Shown piece after piece: positions 11,609-26,920 of a stretch of DNA of 64,000 nt (positions are counted from its first letter, which is position 1; each line of letters begins with the position of its first letter). The notes under the pieces were generated by a model. That model did not search any database, was not told the DNA's origin, and saw nothing but the letters and a program-made list of their open reading frames with translations. The position numbers and the translations under genes were made by a program. The stretch is from Vulcanimicrobiota bacterium. GTDB taxonomy: Bacteria > Vulcanimicrobiota > Vulcanimicrobiia > Eremiobacterales > Eremiobacteraceae. The stretch spans positions 1-64,000 of the forward strand of contig JABCYQ010000003.1 of assembly GCA_013290125.1 (NCBI GenBank), read 5' to 3'.

Positions 11609-11904
11609 GCCCCCGCTCTTTGGCCGCCGGCTTCCACCGCCTGCTAATCTTGCCTGGCCGCCGATTCGCTAAGCGAAAATTTCCGATTTGCAAAAAGTGC
11701 TGAACACGCGTTCGAAGATCGTGTTTTTCAGGTGCGATAGTCTTGGTACCAAAAGCCTAACGATGGCGTGACGGGAATCACTCAAGACGCCAGGAACTGG
11801 TCGGTACACACGCGAGGCCGCACAGGCCTTAGCGCTGTGCTTCGTCTGCGCAGCAAACTTCACAAGCTTGCTCGCATCAACCACACATGCAAGAAAGGTT
11901 TGCA

Positions 11905-13173
11905 ATGCGTAACAAACTTCTTGTCTTTGTGGCGTCAGCTCTCGTAGTTGCCGGTTGCAGCAATCAGCAAGCTGTGCCGGTTCAAGCCACGGGCTCGACG
12001 TCTCAAGGACATCATGCCGGACCGTTCGTCCGCCAAAAGGGCGAGCAACCGGTGAATTGGCGATCATTCGCGTGGGTCTCCACAGCTAGCCCGTTCTTTC
12101 CGACCATCTTGATCGGTCACGACGGCGCGATGTGGATGACCGACTATAGCGGTACTCAACTCCTTCGCATGGCGATGGACGGCACGGCGAGGCAAGGCGC
12201 CGCCCTCACATCGTTCAACCCGTCCTCGATGACGGTCGGATCCGACAACAAGTTCTATGTCGGCAGCCGCGGTACGGCATCCATTCAAGTCGTCACGACG
12301 GGCGGCGTCGCCACGATCCACGGTATACCCAGCGGCGACGTCGCTTCGTTCAACGGCATGACCCTCGGCCCGGACGGTAACGTCTGGTTCACCGAGGCAT
12401 CGCACTTCGCCAAGATCACGCCGGGCGGAACGATCACAGAGTTCGCATTCAAAGACGCGACCACCAATAACTTCTTCGACGGCATCACAACCGGGCCCGA
12501 CGGCAACCTCTGGGTGACGGAATTTGAGTCGGGAACGCTCGACAAGATAGTTCCGGGTACTGGAGCGCAGACAACGTTCCCGCTCGGCTGCGACGGCACA
12601 CAGATCGTCTCCGCAAAGGGTGATCTCTACGTCTCCTGCAACAACAACACCCTGGCTCAGGTGACGACGGCCGGAGTCGTGACTTCGCTGTTCAATCCGT
12701 ACAGCTATTCATTTAACGGCGCGATGCTCACCGTCGGTCCGGACGGCAACCCGTGGTTCGGCGCTTCGACCGGCAACGTCATCGGTGAATTCGATCCGGG
12801 AACGGCCCAAATGTCCTTCTTCTATCCCCCGAGCAACTACGGCGTGGCTAACGCGCTTACGTTAGGGCCGGACGGCAACATGTGGGCGGTTGACAGCACG
12901 AATCGATCGGTGCAAGTCTACATCCTCAACGTGATTTCGGTCAGCCCGACATCGGTGATCCTAACGGGCCCCGGAAAGACGGCGAACATCGTCGTCACGC
13001 AACCGGGCACAGCGTCTTGGACTGCGTCGAGCACGAGTACCGCCATCGCGAAAGTCGCTCAAGGCAGCCCCGCAGACACATTCACGGTAACCGCAGTCGC
13101 AAAAGGACAGTGCAAGATTATCGTGACGGACTCAGTGGGGAATAGCTTCCCCGTCCACGTGACGGTGCAGTAG
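11905..13173 (+). CDS. Vgb-like beta-propeller lipoprotein with C-terminal Ig-like domain (422 aa)
   Basis: The start is placed at ATG 11905 because AGAAAGG sits 6 nt upstream and the product then begins with a clean lipoprotein signal (MRNKLLVFVASALVVAGC). A propeller of virginiamycin-B-lyase type follows, with repeats of the form LGPDGNVWFTE and TGPDGNLWVTE. Residues after about 345 form a bacterial Ig-like (Big2-type) domain. The lyase catalytic residues cannot be confirmed and many such proteins are not lyases. It is followed 12 nt later by a close paralogue in the same orientation, so the pair is probably co-transcribed and surface-anchored. Confidence 0.8.
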   Translation: MRNKLLVFVASALVVAGCSNQQAVPVQATGSTSQGHHAGPFVRQKGEQPVNWRSFAWVSTASPFFPTILIGHDGAMWMTDYSGTQLLRMAMDGTARQGAALTSFNPSSMTVGSDNKFYVGSRGTASIQVVTTGGVATIHGIPSGDVASFNGMTLGPDGNVWFTEASHFAKITPGGTITEFAFKDATTNNFFDGITTGPDGNLWVTEFESGTLDKIVPGTGAQTTFPLGCDGTQIVSAKGDLYVSCNNNTLAQVTTAGVVTSLFNPYSYSFNGAMLTVGPDGNPWFGASTGNVIGEFDPGTAQMSFFYPPSNYGVANALTLGPDGNMWAVDSTNRSVQVYILNVISVSPTSVILTGPGKTANIVVTQPGTASWTASSTSTAIAKVAQGSPADTFTVTAVAKGQCKIIVTDSVGNSFPVHVTVQ

Positions 13174-13185
13174 GAGGAGATGAAA

Positions 13186-14463
13186 ATGCGCACATCAATC
13201 ATCTGCATCGGCGCGCTGACGCTTGCGCTCACCGCTTGCAGTTCTCACCAATCGATGCCGGCACCGACATCCGGCGGTCTACACGGCGTTGGCCCGAACG
13301 TCGTCCAGACGGGCAAAACCCCCGTTCAATGGAGCCAATTTAAGTGGGGAAGCACTTCATCGTCAAGCCAGTATGATTCTATCGTCACCGGCAGCGATAA
13401 GAACGTCTGGTTCACAGACATCAACGGCCAGAACCTTGTCCAAATGAAGATGACCGGCGCCACGAAGGTCTTTCCGCTGACCTTCAATGGTACTTCGCGG
13501 TTCTCTCCCGCCAATATGACGGTGGGCGCCGATGGCAAGTTCTACATCTCCACCACGAATTCGCCGGGCTTTATCGGCGTCGCCAAGAATACCGGAACGT
13601 TCACAGTAACAGCGATCCCGAGCGGCGACTATGGCTACGATGGCGGATTGACTCTCGGCCCGGACGGCAACGTCTGGTTCACCGAACTCAAACATATCGG
13701 TAAGATCACGCCGACGGGAAAAGTAACGGAAATCGCCTATCCGGATGGACAAACGAACAACCTCTTCGGTTCGATCACGACCGGATCCGACGGCGACATC
13801 TGGGTATCAGAGTACAACCAACCGTACATCGACGACGTGGATCCGCTCACTAACGGCGTCACGGTCTACTCGCTGCCGTGTGCGTTGAGCGGACTCGTTT
13901 CGGCAGCGGACGGTAATCTCTACGGGCCATGCGGCGGCTCGATCGTGAGAATCACGACGAGCGGCTCGTGGTCGCTAATCGCCAATCCGTTCAGCACGGA
14001 TGGCTTTCCGACGTCGTTCATTACGGGTCTCGACGGAAATCCGTGGTTCACGGCGGCGAATAGCAATCAGGTCATTCAATACAACGCTGGCAACGGCACG
14101 TTGCATGCCTTCTACCCGCCCTCGACCTTCGGCAACGACTATGGTCTGGCGGCCGGACCGGACGGCAACTATTGGGCCGTCGGCAACAACGCGATGATCG
14201 ACATCTACATTGTCGACACCCTCGTCGTGACGCCTGCACCGATCAAACTCACGAGCATCGGTCAGACACAAGTCATAACGATTAAGGAGCCGAACACTTC
14301 AACCTGGACCGTTACGAGTTCGAGTCCCGGCGTTGCGACGGTAACTCCCGTCTCTGGCCACGCGAACGAGTATACGGTCAAAGCGATCGGCGTCGGCTCG
14401 ACAAACGTCTCCGTCAAAGACGCGATCGGCAACTCGTTCGTGGACAAGGTGACGGTTACGTAA
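13186..14463 (+). CDS. Second Vgb-like beta-propeller lipoprotein, tandem paralogue (425 aa)
   Basis: It shares domain order with the preceding gene: lipoprotein signal (MRTSIICIGALTLALTAC), SMP-30/Vgb-type propeller repeats (LGPDGNVWFTELKHIGKITP) and a C-terminal Ig-like domain (VTPAPIKLTSIGQTQVI). Two in-frame ATGs compete; AGGAGG at 13172-13177 is only 2 nt from ATG 13180 but 8 nt from ATG 13186, so 13186 is preferred. The two genes look like a tandem duplication with considerable divergence. A strong terminator follows. Confidence 0.8.
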   Translation: MRTSIICIGALTLALTACSSHQSMPAPTSGGLHGVGPNVVQTGKTPVQWSQFKWGSTSSSSQYDSIVTGSDKNVWFTDINGQNLVQMKMTGATKVFPLTFNGTSRFSPANMTVGADGKFYISTTNSPGFIGVAKNTGTFTVTAIPSGDYGYDGGLTLGPDGNVWFTELKHIGKITPTGKVTEIAYPDGQTNNLFGSITTGSDGDIWVSEYNQPYIDDVDPLTNGVTVYSLPCALSGLVSAADGNLYGPCGGSIVRITTSGSWSLIANPFSTDGFPTSFITGLDGNPWFTAANSNQVIQYNAGNGTLHAFYPPSTFGNDYGLAAGPDGNYWAVGNNAMIDIYIVDTLVVTPAPIKLTSIGQTQVITIKEPNTSTWTVTSSSPGVATVTPVSGHANEYTVKAIGVGSTNVSVKDAIGNSFVDKVTVT

Positions 14464-14478
14464 CTTCTCACCCTGACA

Positions 14479-14508
14479 ATGGCCGGGCTCGTGCCCGGCC
14501 ATCTTTTT
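14479..14508 (+). terminator. Rho-independent terminator after the lipoprotein pair
   Basis: A perfect 10-bp stem (ATGGCCGGGC / GCCCGGCCAT) with loop TCGT is followed by CTTTTT. It begins 15 nt after the stop codon and lies just before the BlaI promoter, insulating the two units. Confidence 0.92.
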
Positions 14509-14518
14509 GCCCATTCCT

Positions 14519-14532
14519 ACTAGTTATATAGT
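14519..14532. promoter_or_regulatory. Putative BlaI/MecI operator, site 1
   Basis: A 14-bp dyad ACTAGTTATATAGT, with perfect ACTA/TAGT arms, touches the -35 box of the downstream BlaI-type gene. Related 14-bp sites lie at 17394 and 23292. BlaI-family repressors bind short AT-rich dyads at their own promoters; the match to this window's repressors is inference. Confidence 0.6.
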
Positions 14533-14560
14533 TGACAGAGCGGCGGGGCAGACGTATACT
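14532..14560 (+). promoter_or_regulatory. Consensus sigma-70 promoter for blaI-like/M56 operon 1
   Basis: TTGACA (14532-14537) and TATACT (14555-14560) are separated by exactly 17 nt. The expected transcription start is about 7 nt further on, coinciding with the ATG at 14567, so the transcript is probably leaderless. Confidence 0.8.
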
Positions 14561-14566
14561 AGCCGC

Positions 14567-14959
14567 ATGGCACGCAACACGTCTCCTACGCTCACCGCTG
14601 CAGAGCATCGCGTCATGGAAGTCCTTTGGCGTCTCGGTTCCGGCACCGTTTCGGATGTCGCGGGTTCGATTGGGAATCCGCCGCTGGCGTATACGACAGT
14701 ACTCACGGTACTGCGAACGCTTGACCGAAAAGGCTACGTACGGCATCGCGCGGACGGGAAGGCGCACGTCTTCGCCCCCGCGATCGATCGCAACGCGGTT
14801 CGCCGCGATGTGGTCGGCTACGTCCTCAAACAGTTCTTCGATGGTTCGCCGCGCGAGCTGTTGCTCAACCTGCTCGAGTCCGAGCGCGTGGACCAGGCCG
14901 AGTTGCGCCGCTTGCGATCCGTCCTCGATCGTGCGCGCGACGGCGAACGAAAGGCATGA
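14567..14959 (+). CDS. BlaI/MecI-family transcriptional repressor 1 (130 aa)
   Basis: A winged-helix repressor of the BlaI/MecI/CopY type. It begins TLTAAEHRVMEVLWRLGSGTV and has the recognition region YTTVLTVLRTLDRKGYVRHR, then a C-terminal dimerisation helix (ELLLNLLESERVDQAELRRL). Such repressors sit on operators in their own promoter and are cleaved after signalling by the linked M56 membrane protein. The start at 14567 gives a standard-length protein and coincides with the predicted transcript 5' end. The stop overlaps the M56 gene start by 4 nt (ATGA), a classic BlaI-BlaR1 arrangement. Confidence 0.93.
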   Translation: MARNTSPTLTAAEHRVMEVLWRLGSGTVSDVAGSIGNPPLAYTTVLTVLRTLDRKGYVRHRADGKAHVFAPAIDRNAVRRDVVGYVLKQFFDGSPRELLLNLLESERVDQAELRRLRSVLDRARDGERKA

Positions 14960-17382
14960 ACATGGCGACCAACCCTTCGCTCATCTCGATCGCCGGCGCC
15001 GTCGGCCACGCTCTCTTCACCGGGCTGTGGCTTGGGGCGCTGCTGGCGCTTATACTCTTCTTCATCGCCGAACGACTTCGGGCGACGAACGCCGCCACGC
15101 GACACGCGATGTGGTATGCCGCACTAATCGCTATCGCGGCCGTGCCGGTCGCGGGTGTTGCTTGGTCATTCGATCACGCCGTAACGGTCTCGGCTCCCGT
15201 CGGGCAAACCCAAACGTCGCTGTGGAAGCCGGCGCCTGCGCTCGTCGCACGCCACACTAACCCAGAGAGCGATCGAGTCTCTCACGGGGCGACGGCTGCG
15301 CAGATTCGCGGCGCGTCCACGGATACGGCTTCCGCCGCGGCGCTGACGCCCGCACCGCTGGCGCCCGCACCGCGACCGTTCGACTTCACACCGTATCTGC
15401 TCGGCGCGCTAGGGATCGCTTTATTCGGAGCGCTGATCGGCGTCGGCGGAATCGGTTTGAGTCTTCTTCGGCTGCTCGCAGTGAAACGCGAGAGCCGCCC
15501 GTTCGATCCCGCGATCGCAGCCATGTTGCGCCGCTGGTCAGCGAGGCCCGCGATCGGGCGCGATGTCGCGCTCCGCGTCTCGCAAGGTCTCGACGTCCCC
15601 GCTGCTGTCGGCTTTGCGCATCCGGCCATCCTCGTGCCGGCGTCGTGGCCCGCGAATCTCGACGTCGACGAGCTCGACAGCATCATCATGCACGAGTATT
15701 CGCATCTCCGCCGCTGCGATGATTGGTGGGCGCTGCTGCAGCGGATCGCCGAACGCGCCTACTGGTTCAATCCGGCGCTGCGCTTCATCGCGGCGCGCGC
15801 GAATCTCGAACGCGAGATCGCCTGCGACGACTGGGTCGTGACCGAAGCGTCGAACGCGACGTCGTACGCCGAGTGCTTGTGGCGCATCGCGCAGTTCGCG
15901 CACATCCCGCAGCCACGTTTGCCCGTGCCCGCCGCGCTCGTCACGCGCGCACAGATCGTCGAAAGGATAGAACACCTCATGGATGCCAAACGCGATTCGC
16001 TGCCCCACGTCCGCCCCATCGCGTTGCTCGCGATCGTGCCGCTGGCCGCGCTCCTGCTCGTGATCGGCGTCGTGCGGGCGCCCGCCGTCACGATCACGCA
16101 AACTCCGGCTGCGCTCTCCGCCACTCTTCCTATCGCAACCGCGCCGGTTCATGCGGCCGCCAAGCCTTCGCATTCGACGGTTGTCGTCGCACAGCAAGCG
16201 TGGAAAGCCCTGCCGCCGGCCAAACCTGCTTCGCAGTCGAAGCCGCCAGTGATGACGACGCTTGCACGCGTATCTCAACCGACGCAGATCGGCGCACTGG
16301 CCAAACTCCATGACGGCTCCGGCTCTCAAGTGGCGTTGAGCAGCGGACTTGACGTACGCACGCTGCTTCAGTCTTGCCAGGGCTGTGACCTGAGCGGCAA
16401 GGATCTGCGCAATGTCGATCTGCACGGCTTGAGCTTGAGCGGCGACGACATGTCGCGCGTCGATCTGCGCGGCGCGAATCTGCGCGGTACGCGCTTCTCC
16501 GGCGTCGACCTGACGGACGCGCGGCTCGACGGCGCCGATCTCACCGGTGCGGAATTCAGCGGCGCTGATATCAGGGGCGTCTCGTGGACGGGCGCGATCT
16601 TGACCGACACGAAGTTCGAGGGCGTGACGATCGATTCTGCGATGGTGCACTCGGGCATGCTGCGGCACATGCTTGCCAACTGCTCGGGTTGCGACATGCA
16701 TGCGCTAGACTTGCGCGGTCTCGACCTCAGCGGCGTGCACCTGGAAGGCGCCGATCTGTCGGGCGCGGATCTGCGCGGCGCGAATCTGTCGCACGCGATA
16801 CTCGATGGCGTCGATCTGAAGAACTCACGGCTCGACGACACCGATCTCACGGACGCGCAACTCAACGGCTGCGAGCTGACCGGTGTGGACCTACGGCGTG
16901 CGAAGATCCATGGACTCAAGCTCGAAGGTGCTGATCTGCGAGGCTTGCAGTTCTCAGGACTTGACGTGCGCGGACTGACGGCGGACGGCGCGGACTTGAG
17001 CGGCGCCTCGCTCGCACACGTCGATCTAGCAGGAGTGCACATGGACGGCTCCGACTTCCGCAACGCCGATCTCACCTCGGCCAATCTTTCCGACGGCGAC
17101 TTCTCCGGCGCCGACTTCCGGTATGCGCATTTGGACAACGCGGATCTCCGGCGCGCCGCTCTGTGCGGCTACGACACGTTTACCAACGATAGTGGGGCAG
17201 TGGCCCAGCGCAAGAAAGAGTGCGCAGACTTCTCCGGCGCCACTACTCAAGGCACCGATCTGCGCGGCGCGCGGATATGCGATGACCGCAACGGGCAGCA
17301 ATTGTGCTCTGCGATCTCCGCGGCCGATCTGCGCCTGCTCTCCCATTCGGATTTGACCGGAGCGCTTCTGCCCGATTTTTGA
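14956..17382 (+). CDS. M56 (BlaR1-like) membrane metallopeptidase with C-terminal pentapeptide repeats (808 aa)
   Basis: The N-terminal half is a multi-span M56 peptidase. Zinc-binding HEYSH is at H246/E247/H250, with the downstream LEREIACDD motif (about 284-292) typical of the family and a further helix at about 352-370. In BlaR1 this domain senses signal and triggers loss of BlaI. In place of a penicillin-binding sensor, the C-terminus (about 470-800) consists of pentapeptide repeats (ADLSGADLRGANL type). They fall in two blocks, each introduced by a CxxCD motif (C474/C477 and C576/C579). The C-terminal half is presumably extracytoplasmic if topology follows BlaR1. The last codons overlap a candidate promoter for the cupredoxin operon. 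Confidence 0.9.
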   Translation: MNMATNPSLISIAGAVGHALFTGLWLGALLALILFFIAERLRATNAATRHAMWYAALIAIAAVPVAGVAWSFDHAVTVSAPVGQTQTSLWKPAPALVARHTNPESDRVSHGATAAQIRGASTDTASAAALTPAPLAPAPRPFDFTPYLLGALGIALFGALIGVGGIGLSLLRLLAVKRESRPFDPAIAAMLRRWSARPAIGRDVALRVSQGLDVPAAVGFAHPAILVPASWPANLDVDELDSIIMHEYSHLRRCDDWWALLQRIAERAYWFNPALRFIAARANLEREIACDDWVVTEASNATSYAECLWRIAQFAHIPQPRLPVPAALVTRAQIVERIEHLMDAKRDSLPHVRPIALLAIVPLAALLLVIGVVRAPAVTITQTPAALSATLPIATAPVHAAAKPSHSTVVVAQQAWKALPPAKPASQSKPPVMTTLARVSQPTQIGALAKLHDGSGSQVALSSGLDVRTLLQSCQGCDLSGKDLRNVDLHGLSLSGDDMSRVDLRGANLRGTRFSGVDLTDARLDGADLTGAEFSGADIRGVSWTGAILTDTKFEGVTIDSAMVHSGMLRHMLANCSGCDMHALDLRGLDLSGVHLEGADLSGADLRGANLSHAILDGVDLKNSRLDDTDLTDAQLNGCELTGVDLRRAKIHGLKLEGADLRGLQFSGLDVRGLTADGADLSGASLAHVDLAGVHMDGSDFRNADLTSANLSDGDFSGADFRYAHLDNADLRRAALCGYDTFTNDSGAVAQRKKECADFSGATTQGTDLRGARICDDRNGQQLCSAISAADLRLLSHSDLTGALLPDF

Positions 17383-17407
17383 TGGGCTGACCTACTAATT
17401 ATATAAT
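17379..17407 (+). promoter_or_regulatory. Putative promoter of the cupredoxin operon with overlapping operator-like site 2
   Basis: TTGATG (17379-17384) and a perfect TATAAT (17402-17407) are 17 nt apart. The -10 box lies inside ACTAATTATATAAT (17394-17407), which matches operator site 1 at 12 of 14 positions. This suggests the downstream operon may respond to the same repressor. The predicted start near 17414 would put a palindromic hairpin at the very 5' end of the mRNA. Confidence 0.6.
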
Positions 17408-17413
17408 AGCTTA

Positions 17414-17456
17414 GGGGGCCGACATAAAGTCGGCCCCTTCAGGCATGTCGGCCCAC
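17414..17456. repeat. BIME-like element, copy D
   Basis: Hairpin GGGGCCGAC / ATAAA / GTCGGCCCC at 17415-17437, followed by CTTCAGG and a degenerate second unit (GTCGGCCCACG). It lies between the M56 gene and the cupredoxin gene and probably falls within the leader of the latter. Confidence 0.85.
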
Positions 17457-17534
17457 GTTTGTTAGCGCGATTGAACCGTTCGCGCGGCGGCGGCATACAC
17501 AGGGCAATAACTCTTCTATTAGGAGACTGCGCTC

Positions 17535-17852
17535 TTGAAAATGCTGCTCGCCCTAGCGCTCGCCACCTCCATGACCGCATCGGCCACCGCCGGCAAAGTC
17601 GCGATCAAAGACTACGCGTTCCAGAAGCCGTCCATCACGGTCGTCGCCGGATCAACCGTGACGTGGACGAACAGTGACGACGACCCACATACCGTCGTCG
17701 CCGATGACAAGTCATTCGACTCGATGGGCTTGGGGCAAGGCGACGTCTGGTCGCACACCTTCGCCAAGCCCGGCACCTATCATTACCACTGCGGCGTTCA
17801 TCCATTCATGAAAGGCACCGTCGTCGTCACGGCGGCGGCGAAACACGTATGA
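17535..17852 (+). CDS. Secreted cupredoxin (plastocyanin/amicyanin-like, 105 aa)
   Basis: A small type-1 copper protein. It has a signal peptide (MKMLLALALATSMTASATAG), then the cupredoxin core. The first ligand is the His in DDDPHTVV, and the C-terminal ligand cluster is CGVHPFM (Cys, His, Met), all consistent with an electron carrier. AGGAG at 17521-17525 lies 9 nt before TTG 17535, which is preferred over ATG 17541; the mature protein is the same either way. The stop overlaps the next gene start by 4 nt. Confidence 0.9.
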   Translation: MKMLLALALATSMTASATAGKVAIKDYAFQKPSITVVAGSTVTWTNSDDDPHTVVADDKSFDSMGLGQGDVWSHTFAKPGTYHYHCGVHPFMKGTVVVTAAAKHV

Positions 17853-18760
17853 AGCGCGACGAATTTCTCGAATGCATGGCGTGGGGCGGCACGGGCGTGG
17901 TCTACGGTCTGACCAGCTCCGGCCTCGTCGGTCGCTCGCTGGCCGACGCAAGCGCCGTACCGCTCTCGGCCGCAACGCGGACGTTCGTGCAGATCAGCGA
18001 CAGCCATATCGGCTTCAACGGTAAGGCGAACGACGATGTGGTCGCGACGTTCCAACAGGCGATCGACAAAATCAACGCTCTTCCGGTCGCTCCCGAGTTC
18101 GTGATCCATACCGGCGACCTGACGCACTTGTCCAAGCCGAACCAGCTCGACACCGTGAAGCAGATGCTCGGCACGATAAAGACCGGTGCCTTCTACGCGG
18201 TGCCGGGCGAACACGATGTCATCAACGACAACGGGGATCAGTTCTTCAAACTTTTTGGTCGCGGTTCCTCAGACCGCTGGTTCAGCTTCGACGCGGCCGG
18301 CGTCCACTCGCTCGCGCTGACCAACGTCGTCGGCATCACGAAGGGCGGCATCTTGGGCCGCGATCAACTCGAGTGGGCACGCGCAGATCTCGCCAAACAG
18401 TCGTCCGATACGCCGATCGCGATCATGGCTCACATCCCTTTGTACGCCGTCTATCCCGACTGGGGTTGGACGACGGACGATCAGTCGGAGCTGCTCGACA
18501 TGCTGCGCCGATTCGACAGCGTGACGGTGTTGAACGGCCACATCCACCAGGTACTTTCTAAGACCGACGGTAAAATCACGTTTTACACCGCGGCGAGCAC
18601 TGCGTTTCCGCAGCCTGCGCCCGGCAGCGCGCCGAAACCAGGTCCGCTCGCAGTCCCGGCCGGCGACCTTGCGAAACTGCTCGGTATCCGGACGGTAAGC
18701 ATCGTTGAAGGTTCGCACCAGATCGCGGTCGTCGACGAATCGCTCGCCAAGCAGAATTGA
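17849..18760 (+). CDS. Exported calcineurin-like metallophosphoesterase (303 aa)
   Basis: A dinuclear-metal phosphoesterase. The motif series is intact: QISDSHIGF, HTGDLTHL, VPGEHD (Glu replaces the commoner Asn of GNHD), MAHIPL and NGHIHQV. Residues 1-35 form a hydrophobic export signal. It is translationally coupled to the cupredoxin gene (ATGA overlap) and followed 7 nt later by an ECF sigma gene. The substrate is unknown. Pairing of this phosphoesterase with a cupredoxin suggests a shared periplasmic role, which is inference from context. Confidence 0.9.
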   Translation: MKRDEFLECMAWGGTGVVYGLTSSGLVGRSLADASAVPLSAATRTFVQISDSHIGFNGKANDDVVATFQQAIDKINALPVAPEFVIHTGDLTHLSKPNQLDTVKQMLGTIKTGAFYAVPGEHDVINDNGDQFFKLFGRGSSDRWFSFDAAGVHSLALTNVVGITKGGILGRDQLEWARADLAKQSSDTPIAIMAHIPLYAVYPDWGWTTDDQSELLDMLRRFDSVTVLNGHIHQVLSKTDGKITFYTAASTAFPQPAPGSAPKPGPLAVPAGDLAKLLGIRTVSIVEGSHQIAVVDESLAKQN

Positions 18761-18767
18761 CGTATAG

Positions 18768-19328
18768 ATGATCTCGGCCGATTCGTCGCGCGACCTCATC
18801 GCGAGGCTCGCGCGCGGTGACCAAGGCGCGCTCGCAGAAGCCTACGACCGCTTCGCCGGGCGCTGTCGCGAAGTCGCATATCGCGTTTTGCGCGACGACG
18901 CGCTCGCCGAAGACGCGGTGCAAGAAGCGTTCGCCGCTCTGTGGCGCCGGCGAGACGGTCTCCTCGTGCGCGCTGCCGGCATCGCGCCGTGGCTCGTCGT
19001 CGTCACCCGCAACGCCGCGCTCACATCGCTGCGCGCGGACACCAGGCGCCGCCTGCGCGAAGATCGAGAAGCCGTCGACGTGACATCGGCATCGCGCGAA
19101 CTCGATCCGTCCGAGGTGGTCTCCGGCGAAGATGCCGCTGCGCAGGTCCGAACCGCGCTCGACGGCCTCCCGGTCGAACAGCGCGACGTGATCAAGCTCG
19201 CATACTTCGAGCGCCTCACGCTCGTGCAGGTCGCCGAGCGCACGGGCGCGCCGCTCGGCACGGTGAAGCGCCGCGCGCAGCTTGCGTTAGCGCGCCTTGC
19301 CAAAATTCTGAACGGTGGTGCCCAGTGA
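18768..19328 (+). CDS. ECF-type RNA polymerase sigma factor (186 aa)
   Basis: Regions 2 (ALAEDAVQEAFAALWRR, then APWLVVVTRNAALTSLR) and 4 (LPVEQRDVIKLAYFERLTLVQVAE, ending LGTVKRRAQLALARL) are both clear. Length is typical. It overlaps the downstream anti-sigma gene at GTGA (19325-19328), indicating a coupled pair. It closely follows the metallophosphoesterase, so the cupredoxin operon probably carries its own regulator. Confidence 0.93.
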   Translation: MISADSSRDLIARLARGDQGALAEAYDRFAGRCREVAYRVLRDDALAEDAVQEAFAALWRRRDGLLVRAAGIAPWLVVVTRNAALTSLRADTRRRLREDREAVDVTSASRELDPSEVVSGEDAAAQVRTALDGLPVEQRDVIKLAYFERLTLVQVAERTGAPLGTVKRRAQLALARLAKILNGGAQ

Positions 19329-19960
19329 CGCGACATCCCTACGACGACATCGAATCGTTCGTCCTCGGCGAACTCGAACCCGATCGCGCTGATGTGGTCC
19401 TCGACCACGCTGACGGCTGTGCGACGTGCGCGGTTCTGCTTGCTGAGGCGGTCAGAGGGTCGGCCGCTTTGGCCAACCCGCTGGCGGAGCGGTCCGGCAG
19501 CGCGTCACTCCGTTCGATTCCGAGCGCTTCGGCCATGACGCGTGCCTGGCCGATCATCGCATCGCTTGCCGCTGCGGCGTGTCTTGCGCTCGTCGTCTGG
19601 AACATCGATTTGCGATCGAACACGTCGGCGCTTGCGCCAACGCCAGTCGCGGCGCTCGTGCACTCGCACTTCGTGCACCATCCGCTCGTCAGCGCGTCCG
19701 GCAAAGAATCGGCAAAGGCGATCGTCGCTGCGGATGGGTCATGGGTCTACGTCGTGGCGGACCAGCTCACTCCCGAACTGACGTACGCGGTCTGGCTGAC
19801 GGAAGGCGGCCGCAGCACTCGACTCGGCGCGTTCGCCGCCGACTCTGTCGGCGAAGGCAGCGCGTTCTTCAAGACGCCGAAGTCTAAGCTGCAGGCGATC
19901 GCGGTCGCACCCGACGGTGAGGATCCGGCTGCGTCGAGCTCAGCGCTGCGCTGGCCGTAG
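19325..19960 (+). CDS. Anti-sigma factor, RskA-like with zinc-finger domain (211 aa)
   Basis: The GTG start at 19325 overlaps the sigma stop codon. The N-terminal domain has an intact HxxxCxxC (HADGCATC), a single transmembrane helix follows (WPIIASLAAAACLALVVW), and the periplasmic part is an anti-sigma-K-like beta domain (YVVADQLTPELTYAVWLTEG). It is expected to hold the preceding sigma factor at the membrane until an envelope signal releases it. Unlike the anti-sigma-like protein at 9366-10568, the zinc motif is complete. Confidence 0.9.
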   Translation: MTRHPYDDIESFVLGELEPDRADVVLDHADGCATCAVLLAEAVRGSAALANPLAERSGSASLRSIPSASAMTRAWPIIASLAAAACLALVVWNIDLRSNTSALAPTPVAALVHSHFVHHPLVSASGKESAKAIVAADGSWVYVVADQLTPELTYAVWLTEGGRSTRLGAFAADSVGEGSAFFKTPKSKLQAIAVAPDGEDPAASSSALRWP

Positions 19961-20034
19961 CAAGTGCATTAGACCGACTCGCACGGCAGGACGGCGGCCC
20001 GCCATTGCGAACGCGTCCGCCCGGAGGTGCGGTC

Positions 20035-23000
20035 ATGCGTGAGCGATTGGCGGCTGCTGCTTTAAGCTTTGCTATCATTCTACTATGCGGGTCTTGGGCG
20101 GCGCGAGCCGATGAAGCTACCGCAATGCCAGGACCAAGTCCAAGTGCGACGCCGACATCTCCGTTTGCCGGTCTGAAATGGCGCTCCATCGGACCAGCTG
20201 CGGCCGGCGGGCGCGTGTCCGCGGCCGTTGGCAGCGCACTCGATCCTTTCCTTTACTATGTCGGAACCGCGGGCGGCGGAGTGTGGAAGAGCGTGAACGG
20301 CGGCGCCACGTGGAATCCCGTCTTCGATAAGACGGGCATCGCGGCGATCGGCGACGTCGCGATCGCGCCGTCCACGGACAGCATAATCTGGGTCGGTACC
20401 GGCGAAGCGAATCCTCGCAACGACATCTCGTACGGAAACGGCGTCTATAAATCGGTCGACGGCGGCAAGACTTGGATGCACATGGGGCTCGATGACACGC
20501 GCCAGATCGCGCGAATCGTCATCGATCCAGCCAATCCGGACCATGTGCTCGTCGGTGCACTCGGCGACGTTTTCCGCGATTCAAACGCGCGCGGCGTCTA
20601 CGAGACGACCGATGGCGGGAAGACCTGGCGGCAGACGCTCTTCGTCGGACCGCAGAGCGGCATCTCCGACATGGCGATGGATCCAAAGGACCCGCGCACC
20701 GTCTATGCAGGCGTGTGGCAATTCCGGCGCGTGCCGTGGACATTCACGAGCGGTGGGCCGGACGACGGCCTTTACAAATCCGTGGACGGCGGCGCGACGT
20801 GGGCGAAGCTTGCCGGCAACGGTCTCCCCTCGGATGTGCTCGGCCGCATCGCCCTTGCGATCGCGCCGAGCGATCCGCGCCGCATCTATGCGCTGATCCA
20901 ATCGCAGCAAGGATTTTTGTGGCGCTCGGATGACGGCGGCGCGACGTGGACGATGGAGAACGACAACACCTTGATCGATCAGCGGCCGTTCTACTTCAGC
21001 CACATCGCGGTTGATCCGTCGGACCCCGATCACGTCTATTCGGTCTCCGAGATGGCGTCGCAGAGCAAGGACGGCGGCAAGACCTTCACGACATTTGCCG
21101 ACGAAGTCCACGTAGACTACCACTCGATCTGGATAGCGCCGAACGATGCGAAGCGCATCTTGCTCGGTGAAGATGGCGGCTATGCGCTCAGCGTCGATGG
21201 CGCGCAGACCTGGTCGTTTTCGCGCAATCTCGCGATCGGGCAGATCTATCACGTAGGTTTGGACAACGCGCAGCCGTACAACGTCTGCGGCGGATTCCAG
21301 GACAACAACGGCTGGTGCTCGCCGTCGAACAGCCTCGACCGCGACGGGATCACAAACGCGTACTCCATGCCGGTGATCGGCGGCGACGGCGAGTGGGTCG
21401 TCCCCGACCCCGCAAATCCGAACCTCGTGTGGGCCGACCTCGAAGACGGTGTCGTTCACATCTTTGACAGGACGACGCACGAGAGCTACGATGTCGAACC
21501 GGCGCCGGGTGCGTTCGGAACGTTCGACTACGCTGCGGCGAAGTATCGCTTCAATTGGGATTCACCGATCGCGTTCGCGCCGTGGGATCCGCACACCGTC
21601 TGGTACGGCGGCGACGTCATCTTCCAATCGCACGACGAAGGCCGGCATTGGGCGGTGATCAGCCCGGACCTCACGCTGAACGACAAGTCGCATCAGATCG
21701 CGCCCGGGGGACCGATCACGAAGGACGTCTCGGGGGCGGAATACAGCGACACGATTCTCGACATCGAGGGTTCGCCGATCACGCGTGGAGAGATCTGGGC
21801 CGGCACCGACGATGGTCTGATCCAATTGACGCGCGACGGAGGCGCGCATTGGCGTAACGTCACGCCGTCCGGCGTCGCGCCGTTCGGCAGAGTCGAAACG
21901 ATCGCGCCGTCTCGATTTGCGGCGGGCACGGCATTCGCACTCGTTGACCGACACTTCTCGGGGGACACCGCGCCATACGTCTTCGAGACTACCGACTTCG
22001 GCAAGACGTGGACGTCGATCGTGGGTGACCTTCCGCAGGATCAATTCGTGCGGACCGTGCGCCAAGATCCGGTCGACCCGAACATGCTGTACGCGGGCAC
22101 GGAGCTCGGGGTCTTCGTCTCGTTCGATCGAGGCAAGCGCTGGCAATCGCTGCAGTTGAATCTGCCGCCAGCGTCCGTACAGGATATCCGCTTTCAAGAG
22201 CGCGACGGCGCCGTCGTTATCGGCACGCACGGACGGTCGGCGTGGGTCCTCGACGACGCGCGGCCGCTCCAAGAATTCGCTGCTGCGAGCGCTTCCGGTC
22301 GCTATGTCTTCGCGCCGCGTCCGGTTATCTTGTTCCAGCGCGGTGCGATGACGGAAGGATTGTACACGGAATATTCGGCGTCGAACCCGCCCTCCGGCGC
22401 CGTGATCAATTACTATCAGTCGAAACCCGCAAAGCAAGCTCCGGTCATCGAGATCCTCGACGCGCGCGGACATCTGATCCGAACAGTATCGGGCTCACAT
22501 CCGGTCGGTCCCGATCGCACGATGACACCCTACGTCACAAACGATGCCGGATACAATCGTTTCGTTTGGAATCTCCAAGGGAATCCGCCGCCGGCGTGGA
22601 CCACCGCGCCGTCGAAAGATGCCCGGTTCGAGGAAGGCGGTGTCGGCGTCGTACCCGGATCCTATACGGTGCGCGTCTCGTTCGACGGGCAGACGATTTC
22701 GAAGCCTCTTTCGATCGTGCCCGATCCGCGTTTGCGCTGGACACAAGCGGACTATCAAAAACGGCACGACTTCGTCGAGTCCGTCTATGTCATGTACGGC
22801 GCAGTGAATCTCGCGCTCGACGACATCGACGCCACGGAGACCAAACTCGACGCGAAGATCACGGCGGCCAAAAGTTCCGCCTCATCTTCGACCCAGCTCG
22901 CGGCTCTGCAAGCCGCGGCCGACGCCGGACTCGCGCTGCGCAGTCGATTGAGCGCCGGCTACAAGAACGACGAAGACTCGATCAATCAGGCCGGCGCCTT

Positions 23001-23154
23001 GCGGGAGCAGATCCAAGGCCTGTTGTTCGGTGTCTTCGGTTCGCAGGGCCCGCCGATCGGCACGCACTATGCGTTGGAGGCGAAGGTCCGCACGGTTTAC
23101 GACAAGGCCATGGCGGACTACAAAGCCTGGTCCAACTCGACGAAGCCGCTCTGA
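20035..23154 (+). CDS. Secreted VPS10/sortilin-like BNR-repeat propeller protein (1039 aa)
   Basis: The start at ATG 20035 is supported by GGAGGT 7 nt upstream and a signal peptide (about 1-25). Two propellers contain many Asp-box turns (SVDGGKTWMHMG, SDDGGATWTMEN). A C-terminal beta domain follows (about 780-900), with helical segments at the end. This matches the large sortilin/glycosyl-hydrolase-like family common in environmental bacteria; glycosidase activity is unproven. It begins 74 nt after the anti-sigma gene in the same direction. A distant paralogue lies at 38107-41046. Confidence 0.85.
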   Translation: MRERLAAAALSFAIILLCGSWAARADEATAMPGPSPSATPTSPFAGLKWRSIGPAAAGGRVSAAVGSALDPFLYYVGTAGGGVWKSVNGGATWNPVFDKTGIAAIGDVAIAPSTDSIIWVGTGEANPRNDISYGNGVYKSVDGGKTWMHMGLDDTRQIARIVIDPANPDHVLVGALGDVFRDSNARGVYETTDGGKTWRQTLFVGPQSGISDMAMDPKDPRTVYAGVWQFRRVPWTFTSGGPDDGLYKSVDGGATWAKLAGNGLPSDVLGRIALAIAPSDPRRIYALIQSQQGFLWRSDDGGATWTMENDNTLIDQRPFYFSHIAVDPSDPDHVYSVSEMASQSKDGGKTFTTFADEVHVDYHSIWIAPNDAKRILLGEDGGYALSVDGAQTWSFSRNLAIGQIYHVGLDNAQPYNVCGGFQDNNGWCSPSNSLDRDGITNAYSMPVIGGDGEWVVPDPANPNLVWADLEDGVVHIFDRTTHESYDVEPAPGAFGTFDYAAAKYRFNWDSPIAFAPWDPHTVWYGGDVIFQSHDEGRHWAVISPDLTLNDKSHQIAPGGPITKDVSGAEYSDTILDIEGSPITRGEIWAGTDDGLIQLTRDGGAHWRNVTPSGVAPFGRVETIAPSRFAAGTAFALVDRHFSGDTAPYVFETTDFGKTWTSIVGDLPQDQFVRTVRQDPVDPNMLYAGTELGVFVSFDRGKRWQSLQLNLPPASVQDIRFQERDGAVVIGTHGRSAWVLDDARPLQEFAAASASGRYVFAPRPVILFQRGAMTEGLYTEYSASNPPSGAVINYYQSKPAKQAPVIEILDARGHLIRTVSGSHPVGPDRTMTPYVTNDAGYNRFVWNLQGNPPPAWTTAPSKDARFEEGGVGVVPGSYTVRVSFDGQTISKPLSIVPDPRLRWTQADYQKRHDFVESVYVMYGAVNLALDDIDATETKLDAKITAAKSSASSSTQLAALQAAADAGLALRSRLSAGYKNDEDSINQAGALREQIQGLLFGVFGSQGPPIGTHYALEAKVRTVYDKAMADYKAWSNSTKPL

Positions 23155-23169
23155 TTCGACGGGACCTCC

Positions 23170-23236
23170 TGAAGGGGCCGACTTTACGTCGGCCCTGGCC
23201 AATACAACCTGGGCCGATATAAAATCGGCCCCTTCA
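23170..23236. repeat. BIME-like palindromic element, copy E (complete)
   Basis: Both hairpins are present: TGAAGGGGCCGAC / TTTAC / GTCGGCCC, a spacer of about 19 nt, then GGGCCGAT / ATAAA / ATCGGCCCCTTCA. The second stem shows a compensated change (GAT/ATC instead of GAC/GTC), evidence that pairing is maintained. It starts 15 nt after the stop of the sortilin-like gene. Confidence 0.88.
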
Positions 23237-23251
23237 ACGTGCGGGCAAACG

Positions 23252-23305
23252 TTGACAAGGAAGGTTCTGGCGTGCTATCGTAACTCCATCACCTAATTAC
23301 TTAGG
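23252..23305 (+). promoter_or_regulatory. Promoter and BlaI-type operator (site 3) of blaI-like/M56 operon 2
   Basis: TTGACA (23252-23257) and an extended -10, TGCTATCGT (23273-23281), form a plausible promoter. The 14-bp dyad CCTAATTACTTAGG (23292-23305) lies at about +5 to +18, between promoter and start codon, as expected for an autoregulated repressor. It shares the core CTAnTTAnnTA with sites 1 and 2. Confidence 0.7.
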
Positions 23306-23319
23306 TATGGAGGCTTCCC

Positions 23320-23706
23320 TTGGCCAGACCCCGCTCCCGGATGCTCACCGAAGTCGAGCAGCAGCTCATGGAGATCATCTGGTCGCGCGGCCGCGCCACG
23401 GTCGCGGAGGTCGCCGACACGCTCGCGCAGACCAAGCCTGTCGCCTTCAACACCGTCCAGACCACGCTGCGGATATTGGAAGATAAGGGCTTTCTTAAGC
23501 ACACGACCCTCGGCCGTGCATTCGTCTACGAGGCGGCGGTCAAACGCGACCAAGCATCCACCACCGCGCTGCGTCATGTGCTCGGACGGTATTTCAACGA
23601 TTCACCCGAACTACTCGCCCAGACTCTGCTCAAATCGCGCGGACTTTCGAAGGGCGAGCTGACCCGCATCGAAGCGCTGGTCGCTGAAGCGAGGAAGCGG
23701 ACATGA
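23320..23706 (+). CDS. BlaI/MecI-family transcriptional repressor 2 (128 aa)
   Basis: Winged-helix repressor: LTEVEQQLMEIIWSRGRATV, then the recognition region AFNTVQTTLRILEDKGFLKH and a C-terminal dimer helix. TTG 23320 is chosen because GGAGG ends 6 nt upstream; ATG 23341 would remove the N-terminal basic residues. The stop overlaps the M56 gene (ATGA at 23703-23706). It is a diverged paralogue of the repressor at 14567. Confidence 0.92.
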   Translation: MARPRSRMLTEVEQQLMEIIWSRGRATVAEVADTLAQTKPVAFNTVQTTLRILEDKGFLKHTTLGRAFVYEAAVKRDQASTTALRHVLGRYFNDSPELLAQTLLKSRGLSKGELTRIEALVAEARKRT

Positions 23707-26024
23707 TCAACGATATCGTCGCGTCGCTGTTGAACGCCACGTGGCAGGGCGTCGTGCTTTTCGGCTTCGTCTGGACGCTGATCCGCATCGCGCGCCGTTC
23801 GAGCGCTTCTACACGCTACGCCCTCTGGTTCGCCGTACTGATCGCGACTGCCGCGCTGCCCGCGATCGACTTCGCCGTGGCCGCAAATCACTCCGCGACT
23901 CGCATCCCTACTGTCGCCTCGGTAGAGCCCAACGTTTCGACGCGGCACGCGCGCACGACAATGCTCAGCGATATTCCGCGGGCTCACGTCGCTATGCGCG
24001 AACAGCAGCACATTCAGCCGTTCGTCACGCCGACCGAGCCAAAACCAAATCCCCTCTCGGGCGTGACCGATAGAGTCGCCACCGCATTTGGCCTGGTCAT
24101 GTCGGCGCTGCAGCGTTTCGCGATCCCGATCTTCATCGCGTGGTCGACCATCGCGGTGCTGCTCATCGCCCGCCTCTTCTTCTCTTTCGTCAGACTGATG
24201 CGCATCAAGCGCGAGCTTGTGCCATGTCGCGACTCCGTCATTCTTTCGGTGACGCAAGGCTCTTCGCGACCAGTCGACGTCGGCGTATCATCCGAGCTTG
24301 CGATGCCATGCTTGCTCGGATTCTCGCGCCCCGTCATAGCTCTGCCGCGCGCACTCGTCGTGGAGTTGCCGACCGCCGATCTCGCTCGCATCGTCCGCCA
24401 CGAACACGCGCATGTGCGGCGCTGGGACGATTTCGGCAATGCCTTGCAGCAGATCGTGAAGTCCGTGTTCTGGCTCAGTCCGGCCATGCACTTGATCTGC
24501 CGGACGCTCGATATCGAGCGCGAGATCGCCTGCGACGACTTCGCCGTCGTGCCGCTCGACGAGCGCGTCCAGTATGCGAAGTGCCTGACGCATCTCGCAG
24601 TCGACGCCTTCGAGCGGGCGCGCCCGCTTCCGGCGCCCTGTCTCTTCTTCAACCGCAAACAGCTCTTGGTCCGCGTCGAGCGCCTGCTTGAACGCGGCCA
24701 CAACGGCGCGACCACGATCGCGCGGCAGGCCGGCTACGGCGTGGCAATCCTCGCGGTCGCGGTGATCGCTGTGGCGCGCTTCCAGCTTCCGGTGATCGCC
24801 GCCGCGCCGCTCGTTCCTGCGACGGCAGCCGCAAATCCGGTCGCTCAGGCGCCGGTAGCATCGACGCTGGTCGCTCCGGTGCCGGAAGCATTGACGCTGG
24901 TCGCTCCGGCGCGAGGAGCGTTGATGCCGGTAGTTGCGCCGCACGTGCTCGCACCTCACGCGGCTTCGCTCACCGCCCATGGCTTCGCCACGGCCATCGC
25001 AAGGCTGGCGCCTCACGCGGCCGGCATGACAGCAGCGACGGCTGCGATCTCGGCGGCCGCCGCGACTATGTTCACCGCAACGCACGCAAGGGCGATGGCG
25101 ATGGCGAGACGCTTTGCCTCGAACGCAGCGCCGCTCGTCGCCGTTCGCGTCGCAGTTGTGGCAGACGCCATGGCGCCGATCGCGATGGCCGACGCACACG
25201 CCATGGCATCGGCTCGGGTATCGCCATCGACGAGCGACCTGCTCGACGCGCTTGCAAAGGCGGGTTACCCGACGTTGCCGGTCGATGATCTCATCCGGCT
25301 CAAAGACGTCGGCGTCGACGGCGATCTCGTATCGGCGGCCGTCGCGTACGGCGGGTCCCGCCCAAGCGCCGATCAGCTCGTCCGGCTCGCGTCGGTCGGC
25401 GTAGACGGCGCATACCTTCGAAGCCTGCCGAATCTTGGAATCTCGCACATGGATCTCGATGCCGTCGTCCGGATGAAGTCCATCGGGATAGACCCCGCGT
25501 ACATCCGCGACATGGACGCCGTGCTGAAAGCTCGTCCGACGATCGACGACCTGATCCGCTTGCGCTCCGTCGGCGTCGATCCGGGTTACGTCCGCAACAT
25601 GAATGCTGCCTTGAACACAAATACGTCGATCGATGATCTCGTCCGCTTGCAGGCGGAAGGATTGGATCCCGGCTTCGTGCGCGACGTGTACTCAGCTTTG
25701 AACGCCCGGCCTGCACTCGACGACCTCATTCGCCTGCGCTCGGTGGGGATGGACCCCGCTTACATACGCAACATGGATCTCGCGCTGAACATGCGGCTGA
25801 CACTTGACGACCTCGAACGCCTCCGGTCGGTCGGCGTGGACGCTGGCTACGTCCGGTCGTTTCAAGTGCTTGGCTATAACAAGCTCAGCGCTGACGATCT
25901 AATCCGTCTCCGGTCGGTCGGTGTCGACGCAGACTACGTCCGAATGCTGCGAAGCAAAGGGATCGGCGCTTCAACGCCGCTCTCAGTCGACGAACTCATC
26001 AGACTTCGATCGGCAGGCGTATGA
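23703..26024 (+). CDS. M56 (BlaR1-like) membrane metallopeptidase with C-terminal 29-aa repeats (773 aa)
   Basis: The N-terminal M56 domain has zinc-binding HEHAH (H233/E234/H237), the DIEREIACDD motif and membrane helices on both sides. An Ala/Val/Pro-rich low-complexity segment (about 370-510) links to nine units of a 29-residue repeat starting near residue 528, of the form DDLIRLRSVGVDPGYVRNM. The repeats are probably helical and replace the usual beta-lactam sensor. The last unit is cut after RLRSAGV by the stop codon. The stop overlaps the next gene by 4 nt; that gene carries the same repeat, which suggests the two proteins work together. Confidence 0.9.
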   Translation: MINDIVASLLNATWQGVVLFGFVWTLIRIARRSSASTRYALWFAVLIATAALPAIDFAVAANHSATRIPTVASVEPNVSTRHARTTMLSDIPRAHVAMREQQHIQPFVTPTEPKPNPLSGVTDRVATAFGLVMSALQRFAIPIFIAWSTIAVLLIARLFFSFVRLMRIKRELVPCRDSVILSVTQGSSRPVDVGVSSELAMPCLLGFSRPVIALPRALVVELPTADLARIVRHEHAHVRRWDDFGNALQQIVKSVFWLSPAMHLICRTLDIEREIACDDFAVVPLDERVQYAKCLTHLAVDAFERARPLPAPCLFFNRKQLLVRVERLLERGHNGATTIARQAGYGVAILAVAVIAVARFQLPVIAAAPLVPATAAANPVAQAPVASTLVAPVPEALTLVAPARGALMPVVAPHVLAPHAASLTAHGFATAIARLAPHAAGMTAATAAISAAAATMFTATHARAMAMARRFASNAAPLVAVRVAVVADAMAPIAMADAHAMASARVSPSTSDLLDALAKAGYPTLPVDDLIRLKDVGVDGDLVSAAVAYGGSRPSADQLVRLASVGVDGAYLRSLPNLGISHMDLDAVVRMKSIGIDPAYIRDMDAVLKARPTIDDLIRLRSVGVDPGYVRNMNAALNTNTSIDDLVRLQAEGLDPGFVRDVYSALNARPALDDLIRLRSVGMDPAYIRNMDLALNMRLTLDDLERLRSVGVDAGYVRSFQVLGYNKLSADDLIRLRSVGVDADYVRMLRSKGIGASTPLSVDELIRLRSAGV

Positions 26025-26920
26025 TGACGAACACACGCATTGCGGCCTGGCCGCGCTCCGCGATCGCGATCGGTGCGGTCGGAATCGCTATCGCTCTCTT
26101 CTTCGCTCAAGCGCTGGCAGATCTGCCGAGCACGGGTCAGTGGCTCCTCGACCAGCACGCGGGTCGCGCAGCTCTGGATTTGACATTCAAGTCGGCAGGA
26201 TCCGAGGGATCGCATACTTGGGATTTCGAGGACACGACATCGATCGACCGCTCTTCGCTGCGCGGGCTCACGGACAGTCAGTTCGCGTCCAATGGCGTGC
26301 ACGCTACGTTCCGTATCGTCCGCGACGCTGGTTGGTTCGACTGCGACGGTTGGGTCGCGAACGGACGCGGAGCAGGGACGTATCGCTTCACGCCAGATCC
26401 GGCCTTCGCTCAAAAGCTCGCAGCGCGCGGAATAGCGAGCCCCACCGCATCGCAGTCGTTGCGCCTGGCGATCGCCGGGGTCGACATCGCATACATCGAC
26501 CGGTTACGCGCGATCGGCGTCGCGCAGCTTACGCCTGATGATCTCGCACGTTTAGCCGACCACGGCGTCGACGCCGCGTTCGTCTCGGCGATAGGCGCCG
26601 ACGGCTATCGCTTCCAGACGGCTGACGATCTCATCCGACTGTGCGATCACGGTGTCACGCAAGACTTCGTGGCGTCGATGCGAGCGGCCGGCTACACAAA
26701 TCTGACGGCCGAAGGTCTCGTACGCTTGGTCGACCATGGCGTCAATCCGAAATTCGTCGCGTCGATGCGGGCAGTTGGCTATACGAATCTAAGCAGCGAC
26801 GATCTCGTGCGACTCGCCGACCACGGCGTCGACGCGGATTTCGTCAAGCGCATGACCGCCCACGGCTACTCGAAGCTCTCCGTCGACGATCTGATCCGAC
26901 TCCGCGACAACGGTTTCTAG
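26021..26920 (+). CDS. Membrane-anchored or secreted protein with 29-aa repeats (299 aa)
   Basis: An N-terminal hydrophobic segment (about 12-35) is followed by a small beta-rich domain (about 45-125) containing FRIVRDAGWFDCDGWVANG and GAGTYRFTPD. That pattern is familiar in proteins encoded beside M56/BlaI pairs in other environmental bacteria, but I know no assigned function. Residues about 148-299 are 29-residue repeats (DDLVRLADHGVDADFVKRM), ending mid-repeat at RLRDNGF just as the M56 protein ends at RLRSAGV. Translation is coupled to the M56 gene. It may be the partner or ligand of the M56 repeat domain. Confidence 0.75.
   Translation: MMTNTRIAAWPRSAIAIGAVGIAIALFFAQALADLPSTGQWLLDQHAGRAALDLTFKSAGSEGSHTWDFEDTTSIDRSSLRGLTDSQFASNGVHATFRIVRDAGWFDCDGWVANGRGAGTYRFTPDPAFAQKLAARGIASPTASQSLRLAIAGVDIAYIDRLRAIGVAQLTPDDLARLADHGVDAAFVSAIGADGYRFQTADDLIRLCDHGVTQDFVASMRAAGYTNLTAEGLVRLVDHGVNPKFVASMRAVGYTNLSSDDLVRLADHGVDADFVKRMTAHGYSKLSVDDLIRLRDNGF

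Follow-up and report, generated by a model that had tools for sequence, protein, structure and literature searches.

BlaI-M56 operons with repeat-domain sensors and two operator subtypes in a Vulcanimicrobiota bacterium

RESULTS AND DISCUSSION

Two BlaI-M56 operons in one window

The window analyzed here comprises 64,000 nucleotides, positions 1 to 64,000 of contig JABCYQ010000003.1 of a Vulcanimicrobiota bacterium (family Eremiobacteraceae), and corresponds to contig C3 of the 2.9-Mb, 55-contig genome that we refer to as G000. It contains two operons in which the gene for a BlaI-type repressor is coupled to that for an M56 metallopeptidase by an ATGA overlap (14956-14959 in operon 1, 23703-23706 in operon 2), together with dyads of the form (A/C)CTA-N6-TAG(G/T). 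A dyad matching this formula at all eight key positions is called perfect; ACTA..TAGT is termed A-type and CCTA..TAGG C-type. The features of both operons, including the site that follows operon 1, are as follows.

14519..14532, unstranded: operator 1, ACTAGTTATATAGT, A-type; found by pattern search; overlaps the -35 of the BlaI1 promoter
14532..14560, + strand: promoter-like TTGACA-17-TATACT for BlaI1-M56; 11/12 matches
14567..14959, + strand: BlaI1 repressor, helix AYTTVLT; PF03965 97.5 bits; MecI (1sd6) E 6e-8
14956..17382, + strand: M56-1 metallopeptidase, C-terminal pentapeptide sensor, HEYSH active site; PF05569 98.8 bits
17379..17407, + strand: promoter-like TTGATG-17-TATAAT, with its -10 inside operator 2; 10/12 matches
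17394..17407, unstranded: operator 2, ACTAATTATATAAT, A-type; 12 base pairs (bp) 3' of the M56-1 stop codon
23252..23281, + strand: promoter-like TTGACA-18-TATCGT for BlaI2; read from the sequence; conserved
23292..23305, unstranded: operator 3, CCTAATTACTTAGG, C-type; immediately 3' of the -10
23320..23706, + strand: BlaI2 repressor, helix AFNTVQT, TTG start; PF03965 101.3 bits; BlaI (1p6r) E 1.9e-6; clade support 99/94
23703..26024, + strand: M56-2 metallopeptidase, C-terminal sensor of 29-amino-acid (29-aa) repeats, HEHAH active site; PF05569 105.4 bits
26021..26920, + strand: predicted secreted companion built of 29-aa repeats, third gene of operon 2; ATGA overlap with M56-2

Both repressors score above the cut-off of 22.6 bits for PF03965 (winged-helix Penicillinase_R), and MecI and BlaI are their nearest solved structures. 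In both M56 proteins, hydrophobic segments flank the protease domain on either side. An earlier note, made from the sequence of this DNA, had described the two ATGA-coupled pairs with their HEYSH and HEHAH motifs and had stated that the M56 proteins lack a penicillin-binding sensor, one carrying pentapeptide repeats and the other 29-aa repeats. We recovered all of these traits, and Pfam found neither a transpeptidase nor a beta-lactamase domain in M56-1 or M56-2, which reach only 57-60 bits against the blaR1_generic cut-off of 400. The whole genome holds three BlaI and three M56 genes, and the third pair (BlaI3), on contig C43, has a leader with the same kind of dyad, ACTAATTTGTTAGT (C43:12854). 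This pair, the third gene of operon 2, and the sites at DUF5916 and other secreted-protein genes described below go beyond that note.

The dyad and its distribution

Dyads had been reported at 14519, 17394, and 23292, and the strict pattern behind that report indeed gave these three matches in the window versus 0.06 expected from shuffles. Across G000, it matched five times (including the three in the window), and a reversed control pattern matched 35 times; a match on contig C37 was discarded, as it sits at a ribosomal gene junction. The placement of the dyads at three promoters also held as a prediction, in that the only two sigma-70-like promoters in 14400-17600 coincide with sites 1 and 2, and site 3 comes after TTGACA-18-TATCGT.

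Conservation upstream of orthologues, the check that had been set for these sites, was found in related genomes. Within the genus, operator 1 is kept as CTACTAGTTRYATAGTTGACA across the -35 in three congeners, and operator 3, just past the -10, is kept as ATCACCTAATTACTTAGGTATGGAGGC (with two substitutions in the congener G001). BlaI neighborhoods were then drawn from the 61 related genomes searched. Within 220 bp upstream, 53 of the 59 BlaI genes that have an M56 partner carry a 14-mer agreeing with ACTA-N6-TAGT in 6 or more of the 8 key bases; at 7 or more key bases, the count was 36/59, relative to ~2.5% of random windows from those loci. In 566 kb of fetched sequence, we detected 60 perfect dyads, of which 49 precede BlaI, 4 precede DUF5916 genes, and 7 lie elsewhere. 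The last group includes the counterpart of site 17394 in the congener G002, as well as three sites that directly follow an M56 gene of the pentapeptide type and lie where the gene for a stand-alone pentapeptide protein begins. Paired sites are common (45-bp spacing in 13 cases and 44-bp in 3), and most sites have the core CTAA-N4-TTAG. A chance origin of the dyads was rejected on the shuffle, whole-genome, and 566-kb counts.

A comparable module was found in Sphingopyxis sp. H050 (L204 2472-7541), in which genes for BlaI, an M56 protein with 29-aa repeats, a repeat protein, and a TonB-receptor-like protein are consecutive, and GCTACAAATGTAGC occurs twice in tandem before BlaI. Gene order, repeat type, and CTA-N6-TAG spacing are alike, whereas the bacterium is only remotely related and the operator core is CTACAAATGTAG. 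From its placement upstream of BlaI across the class and the spacing shared with Sphingopyxis, we conclude that the dyad is a BlaI/MecI-type operator, predicted to be bound by the repressors of this BlaI family and lineage-specific in its core. MecI operators share the CTA-N6-TAG geometry, and a dyad of this geometry is present at the promoters of these BlaI genes. The TACA/TGTA core, a trait of the BlaI/MecI family, is not the core of most sites here; it is given in PMC7253601, which also warns that those 10 bases predict unreliably.

Operator subtypes follow the repressor clade

The earlier note had assumed a single common operator. The sites do form one family, but they fall into two subtypes. 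Eleven repressors with an M56 partner carry the AFNTVQT helix and constitute one clade that includes BlaI2 (support 99/94). CCTA..TAGG is found at 12 of the 13 perfect sites of this clade versus 0/35 for all other repressors (Fisher 1.9e-10, a value that takes no account of relatedness, the clade being a single change on the tree). At loci L074 and L116, the sensor is of the 29-aa kind, but the repressor has the AYTTVLT helix and the operators are ACTA; therefore, the operator tracks the repressor rather than the sensor. Judged by its A type, site 17394 would be read by BlaI1 or BlaI3, and because the sites form two subtypes that match the repressor clade, some degree of insulation between the two circuits, if not more, seems likely.

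Sensor domains and matching companions

In a set of 57 M56 proteins, Pfam detected pentapeptide repeats in 24, TonB_C in 11, HEAT in 2, and DUF4097 in 1, and none had a transpeptidase or penicillin-binding domain. Some 12 M56 proteins bear 29-aa repeats, and those of M56-2 are covered by no Pfam model. The gene after M56 encodes a protein of the same repeat, mostly with a signal-like N-terminus, at 14 of the 23 assessable pentapeptide loci and at 10 of the 12 loci of the 29-aa type, and mixed sensor-companion pairs were absent from these loci. Companions were counted by reading translated frames in combination with Pfam, as regular-expression counting was too insensitive for pentapeptide proteins. 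The pentapeptide operon of the window has no matching companion, and the cupredoxin gene comes next instead. These counts suggest a new rule, namely, that the sensor repeat of the M56 protein is mirrored by a secreted companion built of the same repeat; we infer that the companion participates in sensing.

Window M56-1 (14956-17382) contains two Cys-x-Gly-Cys (CxGC) motifs, 102 residues apart. Exactly this distance separates the two motifs in every pentapeptide-type M56 protein in which both were found, and the spacing is 101-105 residues in most companions having two. For the 29-aa companion, an AlphaFold2 model shows an alpha-solenoid with two helices per repeat (predicted local distance difference test score, ~81-96 across the repeats, with an unreliable N-terminal part), and a fold search with this protein gave no solved match at E <0.001. 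A profile of its repeats (26021-26920) produced a summed Protein Data Bank match to transcription activator-like (TAL) effector repeats with E 4e-15. We did not read this match as homology, given that it is not significant over any one stretch and that E never fell below 0.001 in the fold search.

Predicted targets outside the window

Elsewhere in G000, one site lies at the start of a DUF5916 gene (C13:55831), and others precede the genes for a BAAT-type hydrolase (C19:26935) and, on contig C2, a DUF5117/5118 metalloprotease. BlaI3 itself is transcribed divergently from a DUF5916 paralogue. Two members of this family were called with PF19313 (23.2 and 25.5 bits; cut-off, 22.6) and the rest by similarity to one of them. 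In 12 genomes of the taxonomic family, a perfect dyad is present in 16 of 45 DUF5916-family upstream regions, as opposed to 0.22% of dinucleotide shuffles; approximately 0.1 of the 45 would be expected, from shuffles and from the real background rate alike. Moreover, the fetched stretch contains a DUF5916 gene at ~20 of the 57 BlaI-M56 loci outside the window, compared with 0 of 8 BlaI genes lacking a detected M56 partner. The DUF5916 paralogues thus stand as the larger predicted regulon, which lies beyond the window. An operator-less DUF5916 paralogue occupies 63004-64000 and extends past the window end to C3:64863.

The cluster between the operons

The genes between operator 2 and operon 2 are listed below.

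17535..17852, + strand: cupredoxin, first cluster gene past operator 2; PF13473 45.8 bits; syntenic in the genus
17849..18760, + strand: calcineurin-like phosphoesterase; PF00149 47.4 bits; syntenic
18768..19328, + strand: extracytoplasmic function (ECF) sigma factor; Sigma-70 regions r2 and r4
19325..19960, + strand: probable anti-sigma factor; under the Pfam cut-offs (RskA_C 21.9 bits, zf-HC2 17.9 bits)
20035..23154, + strand: secreted VPS10/BNR beta-propeller protein; PF15902 92.1 bits

The 12-bp distance of the site at 17394 from the preceding M56 stop codon is the same in each of the three congeners (7, 7, and 8 of 8 key bases), the counterparts in G001 and G002 being ACTAATAATATAAG and ACTATATAATTAGT, respectively. 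An apparent loss of the site in G002, suggested by alignment, was rejected upon direct search, which located a perfect dyad equally far from the stop codon. Operator 2 may plausibly control the cupredoxin/phosphoesterase/ECF cluster, as the earlier note had proposed, because the site is positionally conserved and covers the -10; this remains a prediction, against which a hairpin in G002 has to be set (see below).

A hairpin also comes after site 2 in the window, but its reading as a terminator was rejected, as the sequence belongs to a dispersed palindrome, GGGCCGAC-N3-8-GTCGGCCC, seen at window positions 17415-17437 and near 23175-23232. This palindrome has 336 copies in G000, 199 copies in G001, and 13 copies in G002, and a reversed control gave no match; the element is a dispersed hairpin resembling repetitive extragenic palindromes, and its copy number varies strongly within the genus.

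A proposed proteolytic relay with new input and output

Taken together, these findings make it likely, in our view, that both operons work as proteolytic relays of the BlaR1/BlaI kind in which input and output are both new and which have been re-tooled to sense the envelope. BlaI would bind the (A/C)CTA-N6-TAG(G/T) dyad at its own promoter and thereby repress the operon. In the membrane-bound M56 protease, an extracytoplasmic repeat domain, either a pentapeptide beta-helix with two Cys-x-Gly-Cys motifs or a 29-aa alpha-solenoid, would take the place of the penicillin-binding domain. An envelope change, sensed with or through the secreted companion of the same repeat, may activate the protease and lead to removal of BlaI, thus derepressing the operon and those envelope genes that have matching operators; the putative targets are the DUF5916 paralogues, the BAAT-type hydrolase, the DUF5117 protease, and, via operator 2, probably the cupredoxin/phosphoesterase/ECF cluster. 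That the M56 protease would remove BlaI upon a signal at its extracytoplasmic domain is argued by analogy with BlaR1, the mechanism of which is reviewed in PMC7593790. That the dyad also precedes a family of predicted envelope genes suggests a role for such a switch in monitoring and remodeling the cell surface in this lineage.

The gene arrangement, the operators with their conservation, the match between repressor and operator subtype, the companion rule, and the DUF5916 association can all be read from the genomes, at the level of sequence. Several points weigh against the relay as drawn. DNA binding, proteolysis, the direction of signaling, and the nature of the signal are what we infer from these patterns, and the outer-membrane location of DUF5916 proteins is itself a prediction. 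PF19313 matches barely exceed their cut-off, and a site is missing from over half of the DUF5916 genes. Some companions were called from translated frames (nine are Pfam-confirmed), and the subtype correlation rests on one clade and may reflect a single event. In the window, operator 2 deviates from a perfect dyad, and in G002 a strong terminator-like stem with a T-run comes after site 2, where no good -35 was seen.

Other accounts of the same genes were weighed against this relay. The dyads might govern the BlaI-M56 operons only, all other sites being chance, and most perfect dyads do sit at BlaI promoters; likewise, in G000 alone the strict pattern occurs at 6 places versus 3 for the control. 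Simple autoregulation of this kind is nonetheless quite unlikely in view of the excess of perfect dyads upstream of DUF5916 genes (16/45 versus ~0.1 expected). It is somewhat easier to imagine, yet still rather unlikely, that both repressors act on all three sites through one common operator with full cross-talk: the repressors belong to one family and all sites have CTA-N6-TAG or nearly so, but the outer base pair co-varies with the recognition-helix residues, and this pattern is conserved across genera. Hence, of the non-antibiotic network envisaged in the earlier note, the BlaI-M56 pairs, the two sensors, and autoregulation via conserved operators are retained, and the shared operator is not.

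We give little credence to a circuit for resistance to beta-lactams or other cell wall antibiotics, in which the repeat domain would sense wall damage indirectly and the beta-lactamase would lie elsewhere. BlaI and M56 proteins are classical resistance regulators, and G000 has 7 serine beta-lactamase-family matches and 5 transpeptidases; however, no gene of either kind lies near any operator match in G000, no M56 protein has a penicillin-binding sensor, and the neighbors of the operators are envelope or secreted-protein genes. A CopY-type copper-responsive system is very improbable, even though a cupredoxin gene comes after operator 2 and the NCBIfam model CopY_TcrY yields 44.2 bits for BlaI1 and 61.9 bits for BlaI2. 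Both scores are well under its cut-off of 121.95 bits, neither repressor has a Cys-x-Cys metal motif, and an M56 partner is present. CopR/CopY repressors (PMC7253601) share the superfamily and a palindromic operator at their own promoter, but they bind copper by Cys-x-Cys, use the operator RNYKACANNYGTMRNY, and have no protease partner.

Comparison with known systems

The proposed BlaI-M56 relay resembles BlaR1-BlaI and MecR1-MecI of S. aureus and B. licheniformis in that a membrane-bound M56 zinc protease partners a repressor of this family, and in having a dyad, often as tandem operators, at the promoter of its own operon. It differs in its sensors (pentapeptide or 29-aa repeats rather than a penicillin-binding domain), in its operator core (CTAA-N4-TTAG rather than TACA/TGTA), and in its predicted targets (envelope genes rather than beta-lactamase or PBP2a). 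To our knowledge, BlaR1/BlaI is familiar almost solely as an antibiotic-resistance switch, and we found no report of M56 proteins with pentapeptide sensors in the open-access literature. The class as a whole has sensors of other kinds, and since its operator is readable and an envelope regulon can be predicted, the non-resistance signals read by M56 proteases become directly testable; the mirrored companion points to a concrete sensing mechanism, and the operator subtypes allow targets to be predicted from sequence for each repressor.

The closest functional parallel is YjbI/PerA of Caulobacter. This secreted pentapeptide protein, both ends of which carry a cysteine pair, silences envelope stress pathways and controls the outer-membrane protein set and extracytoplasmic proteases through the two-component systems UzcSR and ChvGI (PMC12864828). 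Unlike in the operons studied here, no BlaI or M56 partner of YjbI is described in that paper. We raise, tentatively and without favoring it, the possibility of general envelope surveillance, in which the secreted repeat protein and the M56 repeat domain recognize each other, like with like, and BlaI proteolysis and remodeling of envelope proteins would follow when the secreted twin is lost from the surface or modified there. Such a system would parallel the YjbI circuit as a one-component version based on a protease, in which pentapeptide or alpha-solenoid sensor-companion cassettes are exchangeable.

Synteny and flanking genes

The operon arrangement recurs in three congeners. G001 has the entire cassette in synteny (two Vgb-like genes, BlaI1-M56, cupredoxin, phosphoesterase, ECF, anti-sigma, VPS10 protein, BlaI2-M56, and repeat protein). 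The G002 cassette breaks at the ECF gene, with its two parts at the ends of separate contigs, and the Vgb pair had no match there. The VPS10/BNR protein also adjoins the 29-aa-repeat M56 operon in G004, G011, and G012. The two tandem paralogues at 11887-14463, at least one of which belongs to the virginiamycin B lyase (Vgb) beta-propeller family, are conserved 5' of BlaI1 in G001.

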